Program-made: the position numbers and the translations under genes
Shown: positions 21,537 through 28,457 of the stretch, in pieces
How positions within the stretch are numbered: the first letter of the stretch is position 1
Layout of the letters: every line of letters begins with the position of its first letter
Notes under the pieces: generated by a model
Databases searched by the model: none
Seen by the model: only the letters and a program-made list of their open reading frames with translations
Told to the model about the DNA's origin: nothing
Assembly (NCBI GenBank): GCA_017432075.1
Contig: JAFRJV010000066.1
Location: 1 to 34,302, forward strand
DNA length: 34,302 bases
Direction: 5' to 3'
Origin: Mogibacterium sp.
GTDB taxonomy: Bacteria; Bacillota; Clostridia; Peptostreptococcales; Anaerovoracaceae

Positions 21537-22133
21537 TTATATCAATCCATAAGATTTAAGTGTTTTGTCTACCGATTCTCTGAGTTCTTCAAGGGTACCG
21601 TTGTTGTATATTACCTGATCGGCAAGCTGTACTTTCTTTTCCTCTCCGTCCTGCGAATCCATAATGAGGTCTATAATTGACGGATCGATCCCATCTCTGG
21701 CCATTACTCTGTTTTTACGCACTTCATAATCAGCAGTAACGACCCATACGGCATCATAGTCATCTTCACTGCCCGTCTCAAAAAGAAGCGGTATATCAAA
21801 GAACAGCGCTTTGTCATCGCTTGCCGCCCTCTCCTTTTTTATGGCTTCTATGTCTTCAAGCACGACTTTCGTGGTTCCTTCCTCAAGGACCTTTTTCATT
21901 TCCGGGTTCCTGAAAACAAGATCTCTCATGGCTGCGCGATCCAGGCTTCCGTCTTCGAGTATGAACGACGGGCCGAAATGTTCGCGGATATATGGAATGG
22001 CTTTTCCTCCTGCCGAAGTCATTTCACGCGACATTTTGTCGGCATCGACAACCGTAAAGCCTTTGCTTATAAGATAATTGGTTACCTGTGTTTTGCCGGA
22101 ACCTATACCGCCGGTCACTGCAATAGTTATCAT
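21537..22133 (-). CDS. coaE: Dephospho-CoA kinase
   Basis: The 198-residue P-loop kinase has the Walker A motif GGIGSGKT near the N-terminus, the DADKMSREM segment and the family motif FDIPLLFETG. It phosphorylates dephospho-CoA in the last step of CoA synthesis. A longer frame reaches 22217, but the ATG at 22133 is the family start with GGAG nine bases upstream. It follows polA by 13 bases, a conserved pairing in Firmicutes. I see no convincing terminator after it; the AT-rich stretch at 21500-21536 has only weak pairing. Confidence 0.96.
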   Translation of the reverse strand: MITIAVTGGIGSGKTQVTNYLISKGFTVVDADKMSREMTSAGGKAIPYIREHFGPSFILEDGSLDRAAMRDLVFRNPEMKKVLEEGTTKVVLEDIEAIKKERAASDDKALFFDIPLLFETGSEDDYDAVWVVTADYEVRKNRVMARDGIDPSIIDLIMDSQDGEEKKVQLADQVIYNNGTLEELRESVDKTLKSYGLI

Positions 22134-22146
22134 ACTCTGTTCTCCG

Positions 22147-24810
22147 TTATTTGAGTTCGTACCACGTTTTTCCAATATGTATGTCACAGATGAGATCCAC
22201 TGCAAGATCAGCTGCACTCATCATGCATCTCTCCAGTATCTCTCTGACTTCATCAGCCTCTTTGTCAGGTCCCTCAACTATCAGTTCGTCGTGTATCTGA
22301 AGTATAAGTCTTGATTCCAGACCCTTTCTGCGAAGTTCAGAAGATACAGAATTCATGGCTATCTTTATTATATCAGCAGCTGTGCCCTGAATAGGAGTAT
22401 TCATGGCCAGACGTTTTGCAAGTTCGCGTTCCATGAATTTACGCGAAGCGAATTCCGGAAGCTTACGTACCCTTCCGAAAAATGTCCTTACCTCGCGAAG
22501 CTGTTCTCCCATCTCGATCTGCCTGTCCAGGTACTCCTTTACCGCTGAATGCTTGGCGAAATACTCATTGATATATCTCTGGGCATCGCTTCTGGTGATG
22601 TTAAGGCTTTCACCGAGACCGAAGCCGCTCATGCCGTATACCACTCCGAAATTAACGGCCTTGGCTCTGGTTCTGTCGAGCGGAGTCACTTCATCTTCAG
22701 GTATGTCAAACACTCTGGAAGCAGTAGCCCTATGGATGTCCTTTCCTGCGCGGAAATCAGCGATAAGCGATTCATCACCACTGAGTGCTGCAAGTATGCG
22801 CAGCTCGATCTGGGAATAATCTGAGCCTGTGAACATCTTCCCGTTTTCAGCGACAAAAGCCTTCCTGATCAGTCTGCCGTAATCATCACGTATAGGTATG
22901 TTCTGCAGATTAGGTTCAGTACAGCTCAGTCTGCCTGTTGCAGCAACAGTCTGCATGAAATGAGGTCTTACCCTGCCATCTGGACCTATCAACGGAAGCA
23001 GACCGTCAACGTATGTGCTCTTAAGCTTGGCAAGTTTCCGGTATCCGAGCACATCGGCGACTATCTTATGATCGTCCTTCAGCTTGTCCAGTATGTCGGC
23101 CGCTGTCGAGTATGATCCGCTCTTGCTTTTTCCGCTTTTCGGGTAAGGTATATTCAGGTTTTCGAACAGAACGACACCAAGCTGTTTAGGCGAATTTATA
23201 TTGAACGTGCTGCCTGCTTCTGCATATATCTCTTTTTCGAGCTTATCGATGTTTTCAGCAAGTTCATCACCTATGCCGGTAAGGATTGCCGGTTCGCACT
23301 TTATTCCTTCGAGCTCCATACGTGCAAGCGTCATGACCAGAGGCATTTCACACTCATCAAAGAGCTTTTTGAGGCTGCCCTCCTCCAATGCTTTCTGCTG
23401 CCCTTTTCTTACTTTTGAAACGTAAAAGGCTCTCTTTAAGAGGTCATCAGAAGGCAAATCGAGTGAGTCGTTTGAAACATCATCCGACATTATCGCGGAT
23501 TCAGTCTCCCTGACTGCATATCCTGCATACCTCAGAAGCATCTTGTCGAGCGTATATTTCTGCCTGTTTGCGTCAAGAAGATACTCGGCGATCATTGCAT
23601 CGTAATGTGGTATAAGATCGGCATCTGAACCTGCCAGCATTGAATATAGAATGCGTTTAAGTCCGCACCCGCACAGTTTATACGACTTTTCTGCGATCTG
23701 ATCAGTAACAATGGAACGATCCATCGGAGTAAGCTCTTTTATGCATGCAAGCTTTTCATCTTCACTGTAAAGACAGATAGATGTTATCTCCGGCTCATTG
23801 ATATGACCTGCATCAGCAGCTGCTTCGATATACACTTCGCTTCCCGGTTTGACTTCTTTCAGAAAGCTTTCAAGGTCGGTTCTCTTTAAAGCAAGGAATT
23901 CATCTTCATAGTCAGCAGTACCGGACACCTCAGACGCACCATCACCGGTCATTCCGGACTGCAGCTTTTTGATGAATGAATTGAATTCAAGTTCGGTATA
24001 TATTGCAATAAGTTTCTCAATATCAGGACCTGTCAGTTCTAAATCTTTCCATTCAAATTCGACCGGAGCCTGGGTATTGATGGTAGCAAGCCATTTTGAC
24101 ATGCGCGCAAGTTCTATATTATTGCGCAGGTTCTCTCCCATCTTTCCCTTTACTTCATCAGCATGATCTATGAGATTTTCGATGGACCCATACTGTTCAA
24201 GGAGAGCTATTCCTTTCTTTTCACCGATACCCGGAACTCCCGGTATGTTGTCAGAGCTGTCACCCATAAGCCCTTTCAGGTCAATGAACTGCTCAGGCGT
24301 GAGATTATACCTCTCCCGCATCGCTTCGATATCGTAAAGATCGAATTCACTCATTCCGCGCCTGTTGATCAGCACGTTGACATGCGGACCGATGAGCTGG
24401 AGCTCGTCTTTATCACCGGAGATCACAAGTGTATCGATCCCGTCTTTCTCAGCTCTTGCAGCTACCGTTCCGATAATATCGTCTGCTTCATACTGCGGCA
24501 CCTCAAGAACAGCTATATTCATGGCATCAAGCACATCATGAAGTACCGGGATCTGTGCCAGGAGTTCAGGCGGAGTTTTAAGCCGTCCTGCCTTGTAGTC
24601 CTTGTAAACATCATGTCTGAACGTACCGCCCTTCAGATCGAAAGCTACAGCCATGTGTGTAGGCTCGTAGTCATTAAGTATCTTTCCGAGCATATTAACA
24701 AAGGCAAACACACCCTGAGTGTGCATGCCTTTGGAAGTTACCATTGGTCTCATCGCAAAGTATGCTCTGAACAGCAGACTGTTGCCGTCAATGAGAATGA
24801 GTTTTTTCAT
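22147..24810 (-). CDS. polA: DNA polymerase I
   Basis: The 887-residue protein has a 5'-3' exonuclease domain (about 1-290, LILIDGNSLLFRAYFA and later DKDELQL), a middle 3'-5' exonuclease-like domain (about 320-500) and a polymerase domain with motif A (GSDYSQIELRILA), motif B (RTRAKAVNFGVVYGMSGF) and motif C (LQIHDELIVE). In the middle domain the proofreading DxE motif is replaced (VYIEAAAD), so proofreading is probably lost, as in several Gram-positive enzymes. It acts in repair and Okazaki fragment processing. A longer frame reaches 24885, but the ATG at 24810 has GGAG upstream and the family N-terminus. Confidence 0.97.
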   Translation of the reverse strand: MKKLILIDGNSLLFRAYFAMRPMVTSKGMHTQGVFAFVNMLGKILNDYEPTHMAVAFDLKGGTFRHDVYKDYKAGRLKTPPELLAQIPVLHDVLDAMNIAVLEVPQYEADDIIGTVAARAEKDGIDTLVISGDKDELQLIGPHVNVLINRRGMSEFDLYDIEAMRERYNLTPEQFIDLKGLMGDSSDNIPGVPGIGEKKGIALLEQYGSIENLIDHADEVKGKMGENLRNNIELARMSKWLATINTQAPVEFEWKDLELTGPDIEKLIAIYTELEFNSFIKKLQSGMTGDGASEVSGTADYEDEFLALKRTDLESFLKEVKPGSEVYIEAAADAGHINEPEITSICLYSEDEKLACIKELTPMDRSIVTDQIAEKSYKLCGCGLKRILYSMLAGSDADLIPHYDAMIAEYLLDANRQKYTLDKMLLRYAGYAVRETESAIMSDDVSNDSLDLPSDDLLKRAFYVSKVRKGQQKALEEGSLKKLFDECEMPLVMTLARMELEGIKCEPAILTGIGDELAENIDKLEKEIYAEAGSTFNINSPKQLGVVLFENLNIPYPKSGKSKSGSYSTAADILDKLKDDHKIVADVLGYRKLAKLKSTYVDGLLPLIGPDGRVRPHFMQTVAATGRLSCTEPNLQNIPIRDDYGRLIRKAFVAENGKMFTGSDYSQIELRILAALSGDESLIADFRAGKDIHRATASRVFDIPEDEVTPLDRTRAKAVNFGVVYGMSGFGLGESLNITRSDAQRYINEYFAKHSAVKEYLDRQIEMGEQLREVRTFFGRVRKLPEFASRKFMERELAKRLAMNTPIQGTAADIIKIAMNSVSSELRRKGLESRLILQIHDELIVEGPDKEADEVREILERCMMSAADLAVDLICDIHIGKTWYELK

Positions 24811-24826
24811 GTTATTATTCTCCGGT

Positions 24827-26605
24827 TTATTGCATATCCTTAGCTGCAGGCAGACCGAACGCTCCTTCTGCAGACAATGCGCCATCTATCACAGCGTATT
24901 GCATCACATCTGTTGCCAGTGCAGCAAAAGCGTCAAAGTTGACCTGCTGTTTTCCGGTTGCGAGAACGAATACAGTGTCACCGTCCAGAGTTCCGTGAAC
25001 AGGCTTGATAGCCCTTGCGTAAGCATCATGCAGGATAGATGCAAGCTTATTGGCCTGTGACTTGGTCAGAGCGGCATTTGTAATCAGGCATGAGATGGTA
25101 GTGTTGAAAACAATGTCATATCCCATCTCTTCGCGCGTAAGAACAGCGGGCTCTTCTTCCTCTGTTATTTCTTCTGCAGTCTCTTCGACCGTTTCTTCTA
25201 TTACTGAAGGCTGTTCTTCTTCGGAAACCAATGCAGGCTCCTCTGAAGGGACTACTTCAGGTTCAGGCTCTTCAAAGAACTCTTCTGCAGGTTCTTCAGG
25301 TTCCTCTTCTGCCTCAGGTTCTTCTTCTATTTCAGGGTCTTCTGCGAGCTCTAAAGGTTCTGCTTCTGTCTCAGGCTCTTCAGCAAACTCTTCCGCAGGT
25401 TCTACAACTGCCTCAGGTTCCTCAATAGGCTCTTCTGCAGGTTCTTCTGCTGAAATTTCTTCCGGTTCAGCTGATACTGCAGGGATAGAAACTTCATCAT
25501 TAGCCAGTGAGGTCTCTTCTGTAACAGTCACAGCAGGAGTTTCAGGTATGAACTCCTCTTCAGGTTCCGCTTCTGCCTCAGGTTCTTCTATTTCAGGCTC
25601 TTCAGCGAGTTCTTCGCCAGGCTCCTCTGCAGAAGCTTCTTCCGGTTCTTCAAAGTGCTCTTCTGAAGATACTCTTTCCGGTTCCTCAGCCGGGACTTCA
25701 TCAAATATCTCTGCAGGTTCCTGAGAAGATATTTCTTCCGATTCCTGCTCTTCGAAAACTTCCTCAGCCGTTTCAACAGCAGGTTCATCAATGGCTTCCG
25801 GTACTTTTTCAATGACTTCAGGCGCCTGCCCGTTAGCAGCTCTCTCTTCCTCGAACTGTCTTGCAACAGCGGCAAGGGCTTCCTCTATATCAGTTTTATC
25901 AATGAACGCTGTGCTTTCATCGACAAGTCTGACACTGTCATGCACCATACTCTTCAGAGTTTTGATAGTACCGTATATAGACTGTCCGTCTTCGGATCTC
26001 AGGCCGGCAATGATATTTCCGGCACCGTTATAAATGTCTCCGACGGCGTTTACAGCTGCTATCGCTCCGACTTCAATCACTCCGTCGCCGCAAGCAAAGG
26101 TTCCGAGTCCTGTTTTCATGGCCCTTTCATAACCTTTAAGTTTACCGACGGTAGCTCCTGTTCCTGCGCCATGATTGCCGTTTGAAAAGACACCTTCATA
26201 TGCATTCTGAACAGCCCGGATACCCATCTGTACATCCGGAAACGCTTTATGGTCTCCTACCGGCAGATCGTAAAGAGATGCTCCGCAGACGATCGGGACT
26301 ATGATGTCATCTCCGACATCAAATCCTATCTTCATCTCTGCAAGCTCCCGCATTACACCGGAAGCAGCTTCAAGGCCGAATGCGGATCCTCCGCTGAGAA
26401 CAACAGCATTTACAGCATTCACTGTGTTTTCACTTTTCAGTAGATCTGTCTCTCTGGTTGCCGGACCTCCGCCTCTGACATCAACGCCTCCCACAGCGCC
26501 TTTTTCGCATATGATGACGGTGCAGCCTGTACCCTTTTCCCTGTCCTCCGCGTTACCGAGTTTAAAGTCCCCTATATCGGCAACGCTGATGATTTTCATA
26601 GCCAT
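24827..26605 (-). CDS. P1-family (DmpA/NylC-like) self-processing hydrolase with Glu/Pro-rich insert
   Basis: The 592-residue protein is an N-terminal-nucleophile hydrolase of the P1/S58 family: residues 1-250 hold GCTVIICEKGAVGGVDVRGG and GGSAFGLEAASG, residues 495-592 hold the second subunit. The predicted self-cleavage site is N501-T502 in FNTTISCLITNAALTK, with T502 becoming the nucleophile. Relatives cleave peptides or amide oligomers; the substrate here is unknown. Between the halves lie about 240 residues (251-488) of Glu/Pro/Ala/Ser-rich repeats, absent from typical members of about 340 residues. There is no signal peptide, so it is probably cytoplasmic. AAAGGA lies 7 bases before the ATG. 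PolA and coaE follow. Confidence 0.88.
   Translation of the reverse strand: MAMKIISVADIGDFKLGNAEDREKGTGCTVIICEKGAVGGVDVRGGGPATRETDLLKSENTVNAVNAVVLSGGSAFGLEAASGVMRELAEMKIGFDVGDDIIVPIVCGASLYDLPVGDHKAFPDVQMGIRAVQNAYEGVFSNGNHGAGTGATVGKLKGYERAMKTGLGTFACGDGVIEVGAIAAVNAVGDIYNGAGNIIAGLRSEDGQSIYGTIKTLKSMVHDSVRLVDESTAFIDKTDIEEALAAVARQFEEERAANGQAPEVIEKVPEAIDEPAVETAEEVFEEQESEEISSQEPAEIFDEVPAEEPERVSSEEHFEEPEEASAEEPGEELAEEPEIEEPEAEAEPEEEFIPETPAVTVTEETSLANDEVSIPAVSAEPEEISAEEPAEEPIEEPEAVVEPAEEFAEEPETEAEPLELAEDPEIEEEPEAEEEPEEPAEEFFEEPEPEVVPSEEPALVSEEEQPSVIEETVEETAEEITEEEEPAVLTREEMGYDIVFNTTISCLITNAALTKSQANKLASILHDAYARAIKPVHGTLDGDTVFVLATGKQQVNFDAFAALATDVMQYAVIDGALSAEGAFGLPAAKDMQ
25142..25855 (-). repeat. Glu/Pro-rich low-complexity repeat region inside the P1 hydrolase
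   Basis: This stretch encodes residues 251-488 as imperfect repeats based on EEP, EEPE and EAEPEE. Two longer similar copies are EELAEEPEIEEPEAEAEP (from residue 331) and ELAEDPEIEEEPEAEEEP (from 419). At the DNA level, variants of TCTTCAGGTTC recur on the plus strand, so length may vary by slippage. It is predicted to be disordered and strongly acidic. Confidence 0.85.
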
Positions 26606-26644
26606 ATGTTATCCTTTTGTTCTTTACAACGGCTTATTTTGTTA

Positions 26645-26673
26645 ACTATACCATAATCAGAAGCATTTTTTAA
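26645..26673 (-). promoter_or_regulatory. Possible promoter for the P1 hydrolase-polA-coaE unit
   Basis: TTAAAA (26673-26668) is followed after 17 bases by TATAGT (26650-26645) on the minus strand, across the panF stop, about 40 bases before the P1 hydrolase start. The -35 matches only partly. It would give this unit its own start. Confidence 0.45.
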
Positions 26674-28186
26674 TCATTTCGGCATCAGGCTCCTCTTTGC
26701 AGAGCGAGCCGACAACAAAATATGCTATTCCGCTTACGATAAGTCCCGCAATGATCTCATGGATACCTAAAGGCAGTATCTTGACTCTGTTGAAGAATAT
26801 GAATACTGCAAGGCCGCATATCACTGATGCAAGACATGCCTTGCTGTTTCCTTTTTTCCAGTACAGTCCACCGATCACAGGCCAGAAGAATGTGGCTTCG
26901 AGGCCGCCGAATGCAAACAGGTTGATCCAGACGATAACATCCGGAGGATTGAGTGCCAGAAGGCAGGCTATTATTCCTATGCCTGCTGTCAGAGCAAAAC
27001 TGTATTGAGGGACTTTTTTGTATGAATCCTCATACTCCGGCTTCGCTGCTTCTTCAGCATCAAAAGGAACCTTCTTTATGTAATGGACATAAATGTCTTT
27101 GATGATTGTAGCCGATGCGAGTATCAGTAATGAATCGATAGTTGACATCACGGCAGCAAGCGGCGCAGCCAGGAAGAATCCCGCAGCCCATGCAGGCATA
27201 TACTGCATAACAACATAAGGAATGACCTGGTCAGTAGTTGCGAGACCTTCCTCAGGAAGAAGCGGGTAAGAGAAAGTACCGGCAAGATGCATTCCGATCA
27301 TAAGAATACCTATGACTACTGTTCCGTAGATCATGGCCTTATGCATTGATTCCGTATCTTTGAATCCCATGCACCTTACGGCAGTCTGCGGAAGTCCGAG
27401 AACAGCGATGCCGACAAGTACCCAGAACGAGATCAGGGCACCCGGTCTCAGTGCAGCTATCTCAGCTCCGTACTCGCCTTTTCCCATCAGATCCCATCCG
27501 GGATTTGAGGCATCAAGGGTGCTGATGATATTGTCCATACCGCCTGCTTCTTTTATTACAAAGAAAAGCAGCAGGAATGTGCCGATAGTCATCACTATTC
27601 CCTGAATAGTATCTGTAGTAACTACAGCTTTGAATCCTCCCACGGAAGTATAGATTATGACGACTGCTCCGAAAAGAAGCAGACCTGCCCAGTACGGCAA
27701 TCCGGTAACGGTCTGAAGAAGCGTAGCTCCTCCGATGAACTGAGCTATCATCTGGGTTATAAAGAACACGACCATTGCGATACCACATACTATGACTACA
27801 GCCGGTGAATCATACCGGGCACGCAGATAATCGTTTACAGTTACAGAATTCGTTCTTCTGGCGATCATGGCGAACTTTTTACCAAGTACTCCAAGGGTAA
27901 GAAAAGCAGCACCTATCTGCACGCCTGCTACCCATGACCATGACATACCGAAGCTTGATGCGAGTCCAGGACCTCCGAGGAACGAACTTGCGCTTGTATA
28001 TGTTGCGACAAGTGTCATTGCAAGAACAACACCGCCCATGCTTCGTGATCCTGCAAAATAATTTGAAAGAAATCCTTTATCGGCGTTTTCCTTTGCCGAT
28101 TTTCTGCTTGTCCGTATTCCCAGCCAAAGGTTGATAAGCAGATACAGAATGAGGATGATCAGTACAGCAGCTTTTTTACTGAGCAT
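26657..28186 (-). CDS. panF: Sodium/pantothenate symporter PanF
   Basis: The 509-residue protein is a sodium:solute symporter family member with about 13 membrane segments. LVATYTSASSFLGGPGLASS and LPQTAVRCMGFKDT match PanF closely. It imports pantothenate, the precursor of CoA, with sodium. The longer frame to 28258 is rejected because the ATG at 28186 has a G-rich ribosome-binding site (AAGGGGG), begins just before the first membrane segment, and overlaps the preceding YhdT-like gene by 11 bases, the usual coupled arrangement. CoaE, the last CoA enzyme, is encoded about 5 kb downstream. Confidence 0.95.
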   Translation of the reverse strand: MLSKKAAVLIILILYLLINLWLGIRTSRKSAKENADKGFLSNYFAGSRSMGGVVLAMTLVATYTSASSFLGGPGLASSFGMSWSWVAGVQIGAAFLTLGVLGKKFAMIARRTNSVTVNDYLRARYDSPAVVIVCGIAMVVFFITQMIAQFIGGATLLQTVTGLPYWAGLLLFGAVVIIYTSVGGFKAVVTTDTIQGIVMTIGTFLLLFFVIKEAGGMDNIISTLDASNPGWDLMGKGEYGAEIAALRPGALISFWVLVGIAVLGLPQTAVRCMGFKDTESMHKAMIYGTVVIGILMIGMHLAGTFSYPLLPEEGLATTDQVIPYVVMQYMPAWAAGFFLAAPLAAVMSTIDSLLILASATIIKDIYVHYIKKVPFDAEEAAKPEYEDSYKKVPQYSFALTAGIGIIACLLALNPPDVIVWINLFAFGGLEATFFWPVIGGLYWKKGNSKACLASVICGLAVFIFFNRVKILPLGIHEIIAGLIVSGIAYFVVGSLCKEEPDAEMIKKCF

Positions 28187-28457
28187 CGAGATCGCCCCCT
28201 TCCTCATTATCTTCAAGGTCAAAGTTGACGAATACTTTCTTGAGCAGAACGACGACACCTGCTACGGCAATAATAAACATTCCAGGTGTGCTGATCAGCC
28301 ACCATACCGGCAGCCCGAATAATCTCGCACCCGTTCCGGACAGGCCATAAGCAAAGCCGACGTTCCAGACGAAGCAGATCAGGAACAGTATCAGTGTGGC
28401 TTTCGCCTCCCTTCTGATCTGTTTTTCCTTTTGCTCCCTTGTCATTAACGATTTCAT
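28176..28457 (-). CDS. YhdT-like (DUF997) small membrane protein
   Basis: The 93-residue protein has a charged N-terminus (MKSLMTREQKEKQIRREAKA), two membrane segments (about 20-40 and 52-73) and an acidic C-terminus. The family (DUF997/YhdT) is commonly encoded directly before panF and may be an accessory subunit of the symporter; this role is inferred from gene pairing. The ATG at 28457 has AAAGGAG ten bases upstream; a longer frame to 28487 would run into the leader structure. It opens the panF operon. Confidence 0.88.
   Translation of the reverse strand: MKSLMTREQKEKQIRREAKATLILFLICFVWNVGFAYGLSGTGARLFGLPVWWLISTPGMFIIAVAGVVVLLKKVFVNFDLEDNEEGGDLDAQ

Follow-up and report, generated by a model that had tools for sequence, protein, structure and literature searches.

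A predicted self-cleaving hydrolase of the S58/P1 family from Mogibacterium sp. carries a hypervariable, probably disordered linker immediately before its cleavage site. The gene lies in a window of 34,302 nucleotides (contig JAFRJV010000066.1 of assembly GCA_017432075.1), and we found the linker to be a trait of one clade, in which its length varies from 37 to 434 residues while a short motif between the linker and the scissile bond remains largely constant. Self-cleaving Ntn hydrolases are generally regarded as depending on tight geometry around the scissile bond, and such a range of probably disordered residues right before the cut constitutes a natural length series for studying what autocleavage requires. 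The explanation we favour, at a probability of roughly 0.55 on comparative sequence evidence, is that of a disordered spacer. Its length would have become free to vary because positioning of the scissile bond falls to the tip motif and not to the tether, and its acidity is probably not specific to the enzyme. The features of the gene and its surroundings are collected in Table 1.

Table 1. Features of the S58 gene and its neighbours in the window (positions are those of the whole window)
Feature	Position	Strand	Remarks
S58/P1-family Ntn hydrolase ORF	24827..26605	-	592 aa, precursor 63.0 kDa, no internal stop
N-terminal part of catalytic fold, residues 1-209	25979..26605	-	holds invariant K155 and N186
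Upstream bracket, residues 210-222	25940..25978	-	conserved; I-x-G-[TS]-[IV]-[KR]-x-L-K-x-x-[VI]-H
Hypervariable Glu/Pro/Ala-rich linker, residues 223-492	25130..25939	-	net charge -102
Imperfect 42-nt tandem repeat within linker	25355..25452	.
Imperfect 18-nt tandem repeat within linker	25294..25343	.
EMGYDIVFN, residues 493-501	25103..25129	-	conserved P9-P2 and P1 Asn; predicted alpha-subunit C-terminus
Predicted beta subunit, residues 502-592	24830..25102	-	9.4 kDa, from nucleophile T502, with D541 and D543
PanF, sodium/pantothenate symporter	26657..28258	-	TIGR02119, 539.6 bits, cut-off 328.05; 51 nt upstream of S58 gene
polA, DNA polymerase I	22147..24810	-	directly downstream; start at ATG of MKKLILIDG; profile search used 22147-24813
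coaE, dephospho-CoA kinase	21537..22217	-	TIGR00152; ORF as listed; match begins at residue 32, so true start probably inside it

The 592-residue ORF matched the Pfam profile Peptidase_S58 (PF03576; MEROPS P1) at 102.6 bits against a cut-off of 23.9. The match fell into two stretches, the best covering residues 8-190 and the second positions 24,863-25,150 in genome coordinates, in agreement with the first-pass annotation, which had described intact S58 halves on either side of an acidic insert. No NCBIfam profile gave a name to the protein. Of 52 distinct S58 ORFs, alignment A1 omitted a copy of the window ORF (L064), three ORFs that were cut off or in pieces (L081, L014 and L004) and three lipoprotein-like paralogues (L008-L010). 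N501 and T502 were invariant in all 46 aligned S58 rows, as were K155, N186, D541 and D543, and N501 lies 13 residues after the insert as first marked, bearing out the Asn-Thr pair predicted just past it. Thr or Ser is described as the nucleophile of the S58/P1 family (PMC3964991). K155 and N186 are 31 residues apart, compared with 30 for the catalytic Lys189 and Asn219 of NylC, a possible equivalence judged by spacing. Self-cleavage at N501-T502 would yield an alpha subunit of 53.6 kDa and the small beta subunit. Other S58 genes were present as well: a second one in the source genome (L001, L004; G000:C63:24432-25369) is broken into two frames that overlap, of 283 and 172 aa, and is a pseudogene or a draft error, and the paralogues L008, L009 and L010 have ordinary linkers and a lipoprotein-like signal by eye, and are perhaps exported.

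The insert first noted at 25,142-25,855 (residues 251-488) is indeed an acidic Glu/Pro stretch, with 97 Glu, 31 Pro and 29 Ala in 238 residues (42% D+E, 1% K+R, net charge -98), and its natural limits are wider: residues 223-492 form a 270-residue linker with 40% D+E and 3% K+R. An antisense ORF at 25,050-25,724 on the forward strand probably just mirrors the Glu/Pro codons. The linker is probably intrinsically disordered, since it plots as such by charge and hydropathy (H 0.40 against a boundary of 0.55). It is bounded by two conserved brackets. The downstream one, P9-P2, reads [DE][ML]GY[DN][IV]xF in the clade and is followed by the P1 Asn; among the 38 clade rows, P7 Gly was conserved in 36, P6 Tyr in 34 and P2 Phe in 36. 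This motif was not common to the eight rows outside the clade, and inside it L078 (200-aa linker) and L089 (130 aa) are exceptions without the full motif. The members with the shortest linkers, L011 (37 aa) and L084 (42 aa), already show a form of both brackets. The flanks are near constant in length over the 46 rows, at 202-210 aa before the linker and 77-104 aa from the Asn onward.

Solved relatives place the linker at a loop that precedes the nucleophile. NylC, a 6-aminohexanoate-oligomer endohydrolase (PDB 3axg, 5xyg and others), belongs to the same family, with the Asn-Thr autocleavage pair and a two-stretch sequence match. Within its loop 5 (258-269), residues 261-266 before Thr267 are reported as invisible in crystals (PMC6021441). 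The S58 linker sits at the corresponding loop, so the insert would enlarge a loop that is mobile in NylC. NylC itself is a 355-residue chain with a loop 5 of 12 residues; if N186 corresponds to its Asn219, the distance from that Asn to the nucleophile is 268 residues greater in the window protein, by residue numbering only. The best solved match was PDB 9cxr, a poly(hexamethylene adipamide) hydrolase (E 4.1e-52, query P0001; residues 9-209 and 500-560 of the window protein). It has 305 aa and no long linker, its matched parts (203 and 225) being separated by only about 21 residues. In ThnT, a pantetheinyl hydrolase of the same family (PDB 3s3u, 3tm1; 419 aa), the matched parts lie about 34 residues apart (255 and 290), and the Thr nucleophile is described as exposed through auto-activation (PMC3964991). 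The clade offers a hint as to where nylon hydrolases accept added sequence. Among the titles and abstract openings of open-licence papers, a literature search found neither such a linker nor a bacterial S58 pantetheinase described.

The first-pass annotation had treated the stretch as a peculiarity of one protein. Instead, we found an intact S58 ORF of 434-735 aa in 32 of 47 genomes of the genus, so that a lone strain peculiarity can be rejected. In the remaining genomes, three had pieces at contig ends (G016, G017 and G030), one an orthologue with a 37-aa linker (G003) and one only a paralogue (G040), while S58 was not found in ten, several genomes being incomplete. Named relatives (14 loci, 12 at 71-85% identity) comprised goat and horse MAGs of Mogibacterium sp. 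together with 'RUG' MAGs of uncultured Clostridiales, the latter being, we take it, rumen genomes. Orthologues in the same-family genera g33, g61, g66, g77 and g91 had 360-511 aa among the matches listed. In a tree built from core columns only, one clade (support 100/99) held all 38 rows with linkers of at least 37 aa. The nearest orthologues outside it (L090-L093) have 21-aa linkers, and no clade row has reverted to about 20 aa. polA lies directly downstream at every clade locus whose DNA reached that side and also at the 21-aa orthologues L090, L091 and L093, indicating one gene in one place.

We compared more distant genomes in order and phylum samples. Complete match lists for 108 order-level and 249 phylum-level genomes contained no S58 ORF split at profile positions 186-206 besides that of the source genome. 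Linkers of moderate length may match in one piece, as did one of 111 aa (G020), so we also compared match span with profile span. The largest excess among 84 order rows was 49 residues, in a clade member (G078), followed by 29; among 109 phylum rows it was 70. Sixteen long or odd rows were fetched, and the ten in which both halves were found had linkers of 19-63 aa with 0-15 acidic residues. The linkers measured in that set are those of the ten rows, as 55 further loci (L005, L006, L034-L063 and L108-L130, mostly of the other S58 subfamily) yielded no match to both halves. S58 proteins measured outside the clade had linkers of 19-63 aa, in line with the statement of the first-pass annotation that family members of about 340 residues lack the stretch; together with the order and phylum samples, this rejects a widespread S58 feature. 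The variable linker is a clade-wide trait within the known S58 family, not a new kind of system. Two phylum loci have S58 ORFs of 495 and 531 aa that are split elsewhere, near profile positions 140-150 (L182 and L183; G463:C31:62064-63344 and G502:C2:237500-238780), and a phylum fragment (G562:C111) covers profile positions 203-262 in a 424-aa frame.

The growth of the linker by slippage of imperfect repeats, suggested at first reading, stands in part. The window DNA has repeats of 18 to 76 nt, further families of 41, 56 and 76 nt among them, all weaker than the copies in relatives, and they point to growth by repetition. Relatives show more than simple slippage, with in-frame tandem copies of 249 nt at 96% identity (L101), 174 nt at 85% (L105) and 300 nt at 87%, spaced 432 nt apart (L099). 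An origin of the stretch by copying from a different gene within its genome was set aside, as a search to E 1 returned only the stretch itself, a weak test since low-complexity sequence scores poorly. For the core, dN/dS was 0.02-0.04 in 12 pairs; for the linker it was 0.11-0.58 in the nine of these pairs with finite dS, three being saturated. Values below 1 allow some selection on composition, bearing in mind that low-complexity alignments bias dN downward. Single-step changes from Glu to Lys numbered 7 of 129 in the linker and 3 of 29 in the core, in a depletion test without a null model.

The acidity is probably not specific to the S58 enzyme. A DNA pattern for EEP[ADE]EE gave 200 matches in 40 of the 47 genus genomes compared with 13 for a backward control, so single matches are near background, yet the excess is clear. 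Many matches fall in unrelated proteins; ten regions picked for them included a zinc-ribbon protein, an M23/G5 peptidase, IF-2 (by eye) and others. Linker net charge correlated with the number of matches in the rest of the genome (Spearman -0.58, p 0.0015, n=27), as did linker length (0.47, p 0.013, n=27), neither being corrected for kinship. Of the 32 genomes in which the long ORF is intact, 27 entered the charge comparison, those missing being G006, G011, G013, G019 and G041 (cut off). Genome G032, without any EEP[ADE]EE match, encodes a 264-aa linker (L079) that is almost neutral at net -11. G022 has no match outside S58, yet its linker has a net charge of -35. The enzyme thus tends to set place and length and the genome largely to set composition, with exceptions, which separates linker length, an enzyme trait, from linker acidity, largely a genome habit. 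The other Glu/Pro-rich tracts of the genus (zinc-ribbon protein, M23 peptidase, IF-2) resemble the linker in residue make-up and in their EEPxEE units, but, judged by eye, those tracts precede recognisable parts or separate them, whereas the S58 linker is inserted into a catalytic fold, at the self-cleavage loop. One recurrent protein of the genus (L163:1409-4879, L166, L167, L170 and L171; open frames of 984-1,294 aa) has a huge Glu/Pro-rich region, an N-terminal zinc ribbon (Pfam, L163 only) and one C-terminal membrane segment by eye; in the M23/G5 peptidase (L162:5365-7893), about 300 N-terminal residues are rich in Glu/Pro and precede a membrane segment, lengths again by eye.

In the mechanism we propose, the spacer would enlarge a surface loop, that of NylC loop 5, ahead of the self-cleavage site of an S58/P1 Ntn hydrolase. 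A short motif, [DE][ML]GY[DN][IV]xF-N before the scissile Asn-Thr, would have become fixed in one clade of gut Bacillota. Our proposal is that P9-P2 alone suffices to dock the scissile bond at the active site, which would make the length of the upstream chain irrelevant to cleavage. The chain would then be free to lengthen by in-frame tandem duplication, its residues following the low-complexity habit of the genome, Glu/Pro in most of these genomes. After self-cleavage it would form a tail of about 290 residues on the 53.6-kDa alpha subunit beside the 9.4-kDa beta subunit, with an effect that is at most generic (solubility, spacing). Weighing against this reading are the long linkers of L078 and L089, which are without the full motif, the acidic linker of G022, the scaling of net charge with linker length, linker dN/dS values below 1 and the lack of any clade row with a linker back near 20 aa. 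The P9-P2 motif could also serve the tip of the tail after cleavage instead of docking before it.

The strongest alternative, though unlikely in our judgement, is that the acidic tail is selected and acts after cleavage: a polyanionic chain with the aromatic tip GYDIxFN-COOH near its own or a neighbouring active site would gate it or gather cationic ligands. The tip motif is conserved at the end of a hypervariable chain, the C-terminus of the NylC alpha subunit is described as flipping toward the adjacent monomer (PMC6021441), and an autoregulating acidic disordered tail has been reported in Hfq (PMC5606850). Linker net charge scales with length (r -0.91; 37 rows with linkers >40 aa), as a selected acidic tail would give, and the G022 linker is acidic without other EEP[ADE]EE matches in its genome. 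Against this, linker charge tends to track the Glu/Pro habit of the genome as a whole, which speaks against a role needing acid, and the long L079 linker is nearly neutral. The core itself is net acidic, at -6 to -12 in the eight rows computed, so no basic partner surface is evident. The gate, cation-binding and anchoring roles suggested by the first-pass annotation thus receive no support as acid-specific functions, and we infer that the tail probably has no specific acidic role.

Somewhat more doubtful is a removable linker, in which a second cut, by the enzyme or a host protease, trims the tail after the Asn-Thr cut and leaves a mature enzyme resembling an ordinary S58 protein. A probably exposed low-complexity chain that evolves fast between a constant core and constant brackets would suit such trimming, but among the first 60 and last 16 linker positions no second conserved site stood out, the middle not being reliably alignable. 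That self-cleavage has been lost and the linker merely joins the two halves as one chain is very improbable given the six invariant residues, the cleavage pair among them, and the low dN/dS of the core. An assembly artefact or two-gene fusion, a concern raised by the first-pass annotation and by a draft source genome of 160 contigs at 83% completeness, can be excluded, as the long ORF is intact in 32 of the genus genomes and the same gene neighbours recur.

Apart from the docked spacer, which remains our preferred account of the linker, the gene neighbours of the S58 gene suggest a role in CoA/pantothenate salvage. They thereby supply a substrate candidate open to testing for a widespread 'P1 family peptidase' without an established role. 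Among the 36 genus genomes that have an orthologue, whole or in part, PanF is the immediate upstream gene in 13. CoaX (type III pantothenate kinase) was nearby in 18 of 40 order- and phylum-level loci of this S58 subfamily and in 0 of 20 of the other subfamily (Fisher p 0.0002); CoaX, an ECF S component or PanF was nearby in 25 of 40 and 0 of 20, respectively (Fisher p 8e-7). Kinship among the genomes means that the observations in both tests are not independent, and L207 is a 100% match to the query record. The association concerns positions 21,537-28,258 of the window and loci L188, L189 and L194-L232. The PanF count excludes two weak symporter matches of 25-26% identity (L219 and L231), L196 matches PanF over a short piece and the ECF S component of L195 is about 3 kb off. 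Searches gave no specific name for the ECF S components near S58 loci. A biotin ligase was a neighbour in 10 of the 40 loci, making biocytin a possible substrate. Plasmid relatives (28 records) were used for neighbours only.

The gene content of the genus is consistent with such a role. Across its 47 genomes, panC was found in two, PanF over the cut-off in 41 and CoaX in 46; a CoaA-type kinase reached the cut-off in none, with weak sub-cut-off matches in 31. The genus thus seems to rely on pantothenate from outside and solely on CoaX. Pantetheine is reported to be phosphorylated in bacteria with coaA, a process absent in those with coaX (PMC12570885), so a pantothenate-freeing hydrolase would make sense. 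The pantetheinyl substrate of ThnT fits the gene neighbours. Three points call for caution: ThnT is described as removing its pantetheinyl group only when that group is already joined to the carbapenem (PMC6097109), S58 was not found in ten genus genomes, and the ECF S components have no specific name. A wider proposal, tentative and with the odds somewhat against it, is that this S58/P1 subfamily is an unrecognised cytoplasmic CoA-salvage amidohydrolase, acting on pantetheine or a derivative (alternatively biocytin) and recovering pantothenate in bacteria with CoaX, a kinase that does not phosphorylate pantetheine, as their only pantothenate kinase; the Mogibacterium-type clade would in addition have evolved a docking motif that uncouples self-cleavage from linker length, giving a disordered tail of up to 434 residues inside the fold. 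Only some members of the genus have PanF placed between yebC and the S58 gene; elsewhere yebC is directly upstream.
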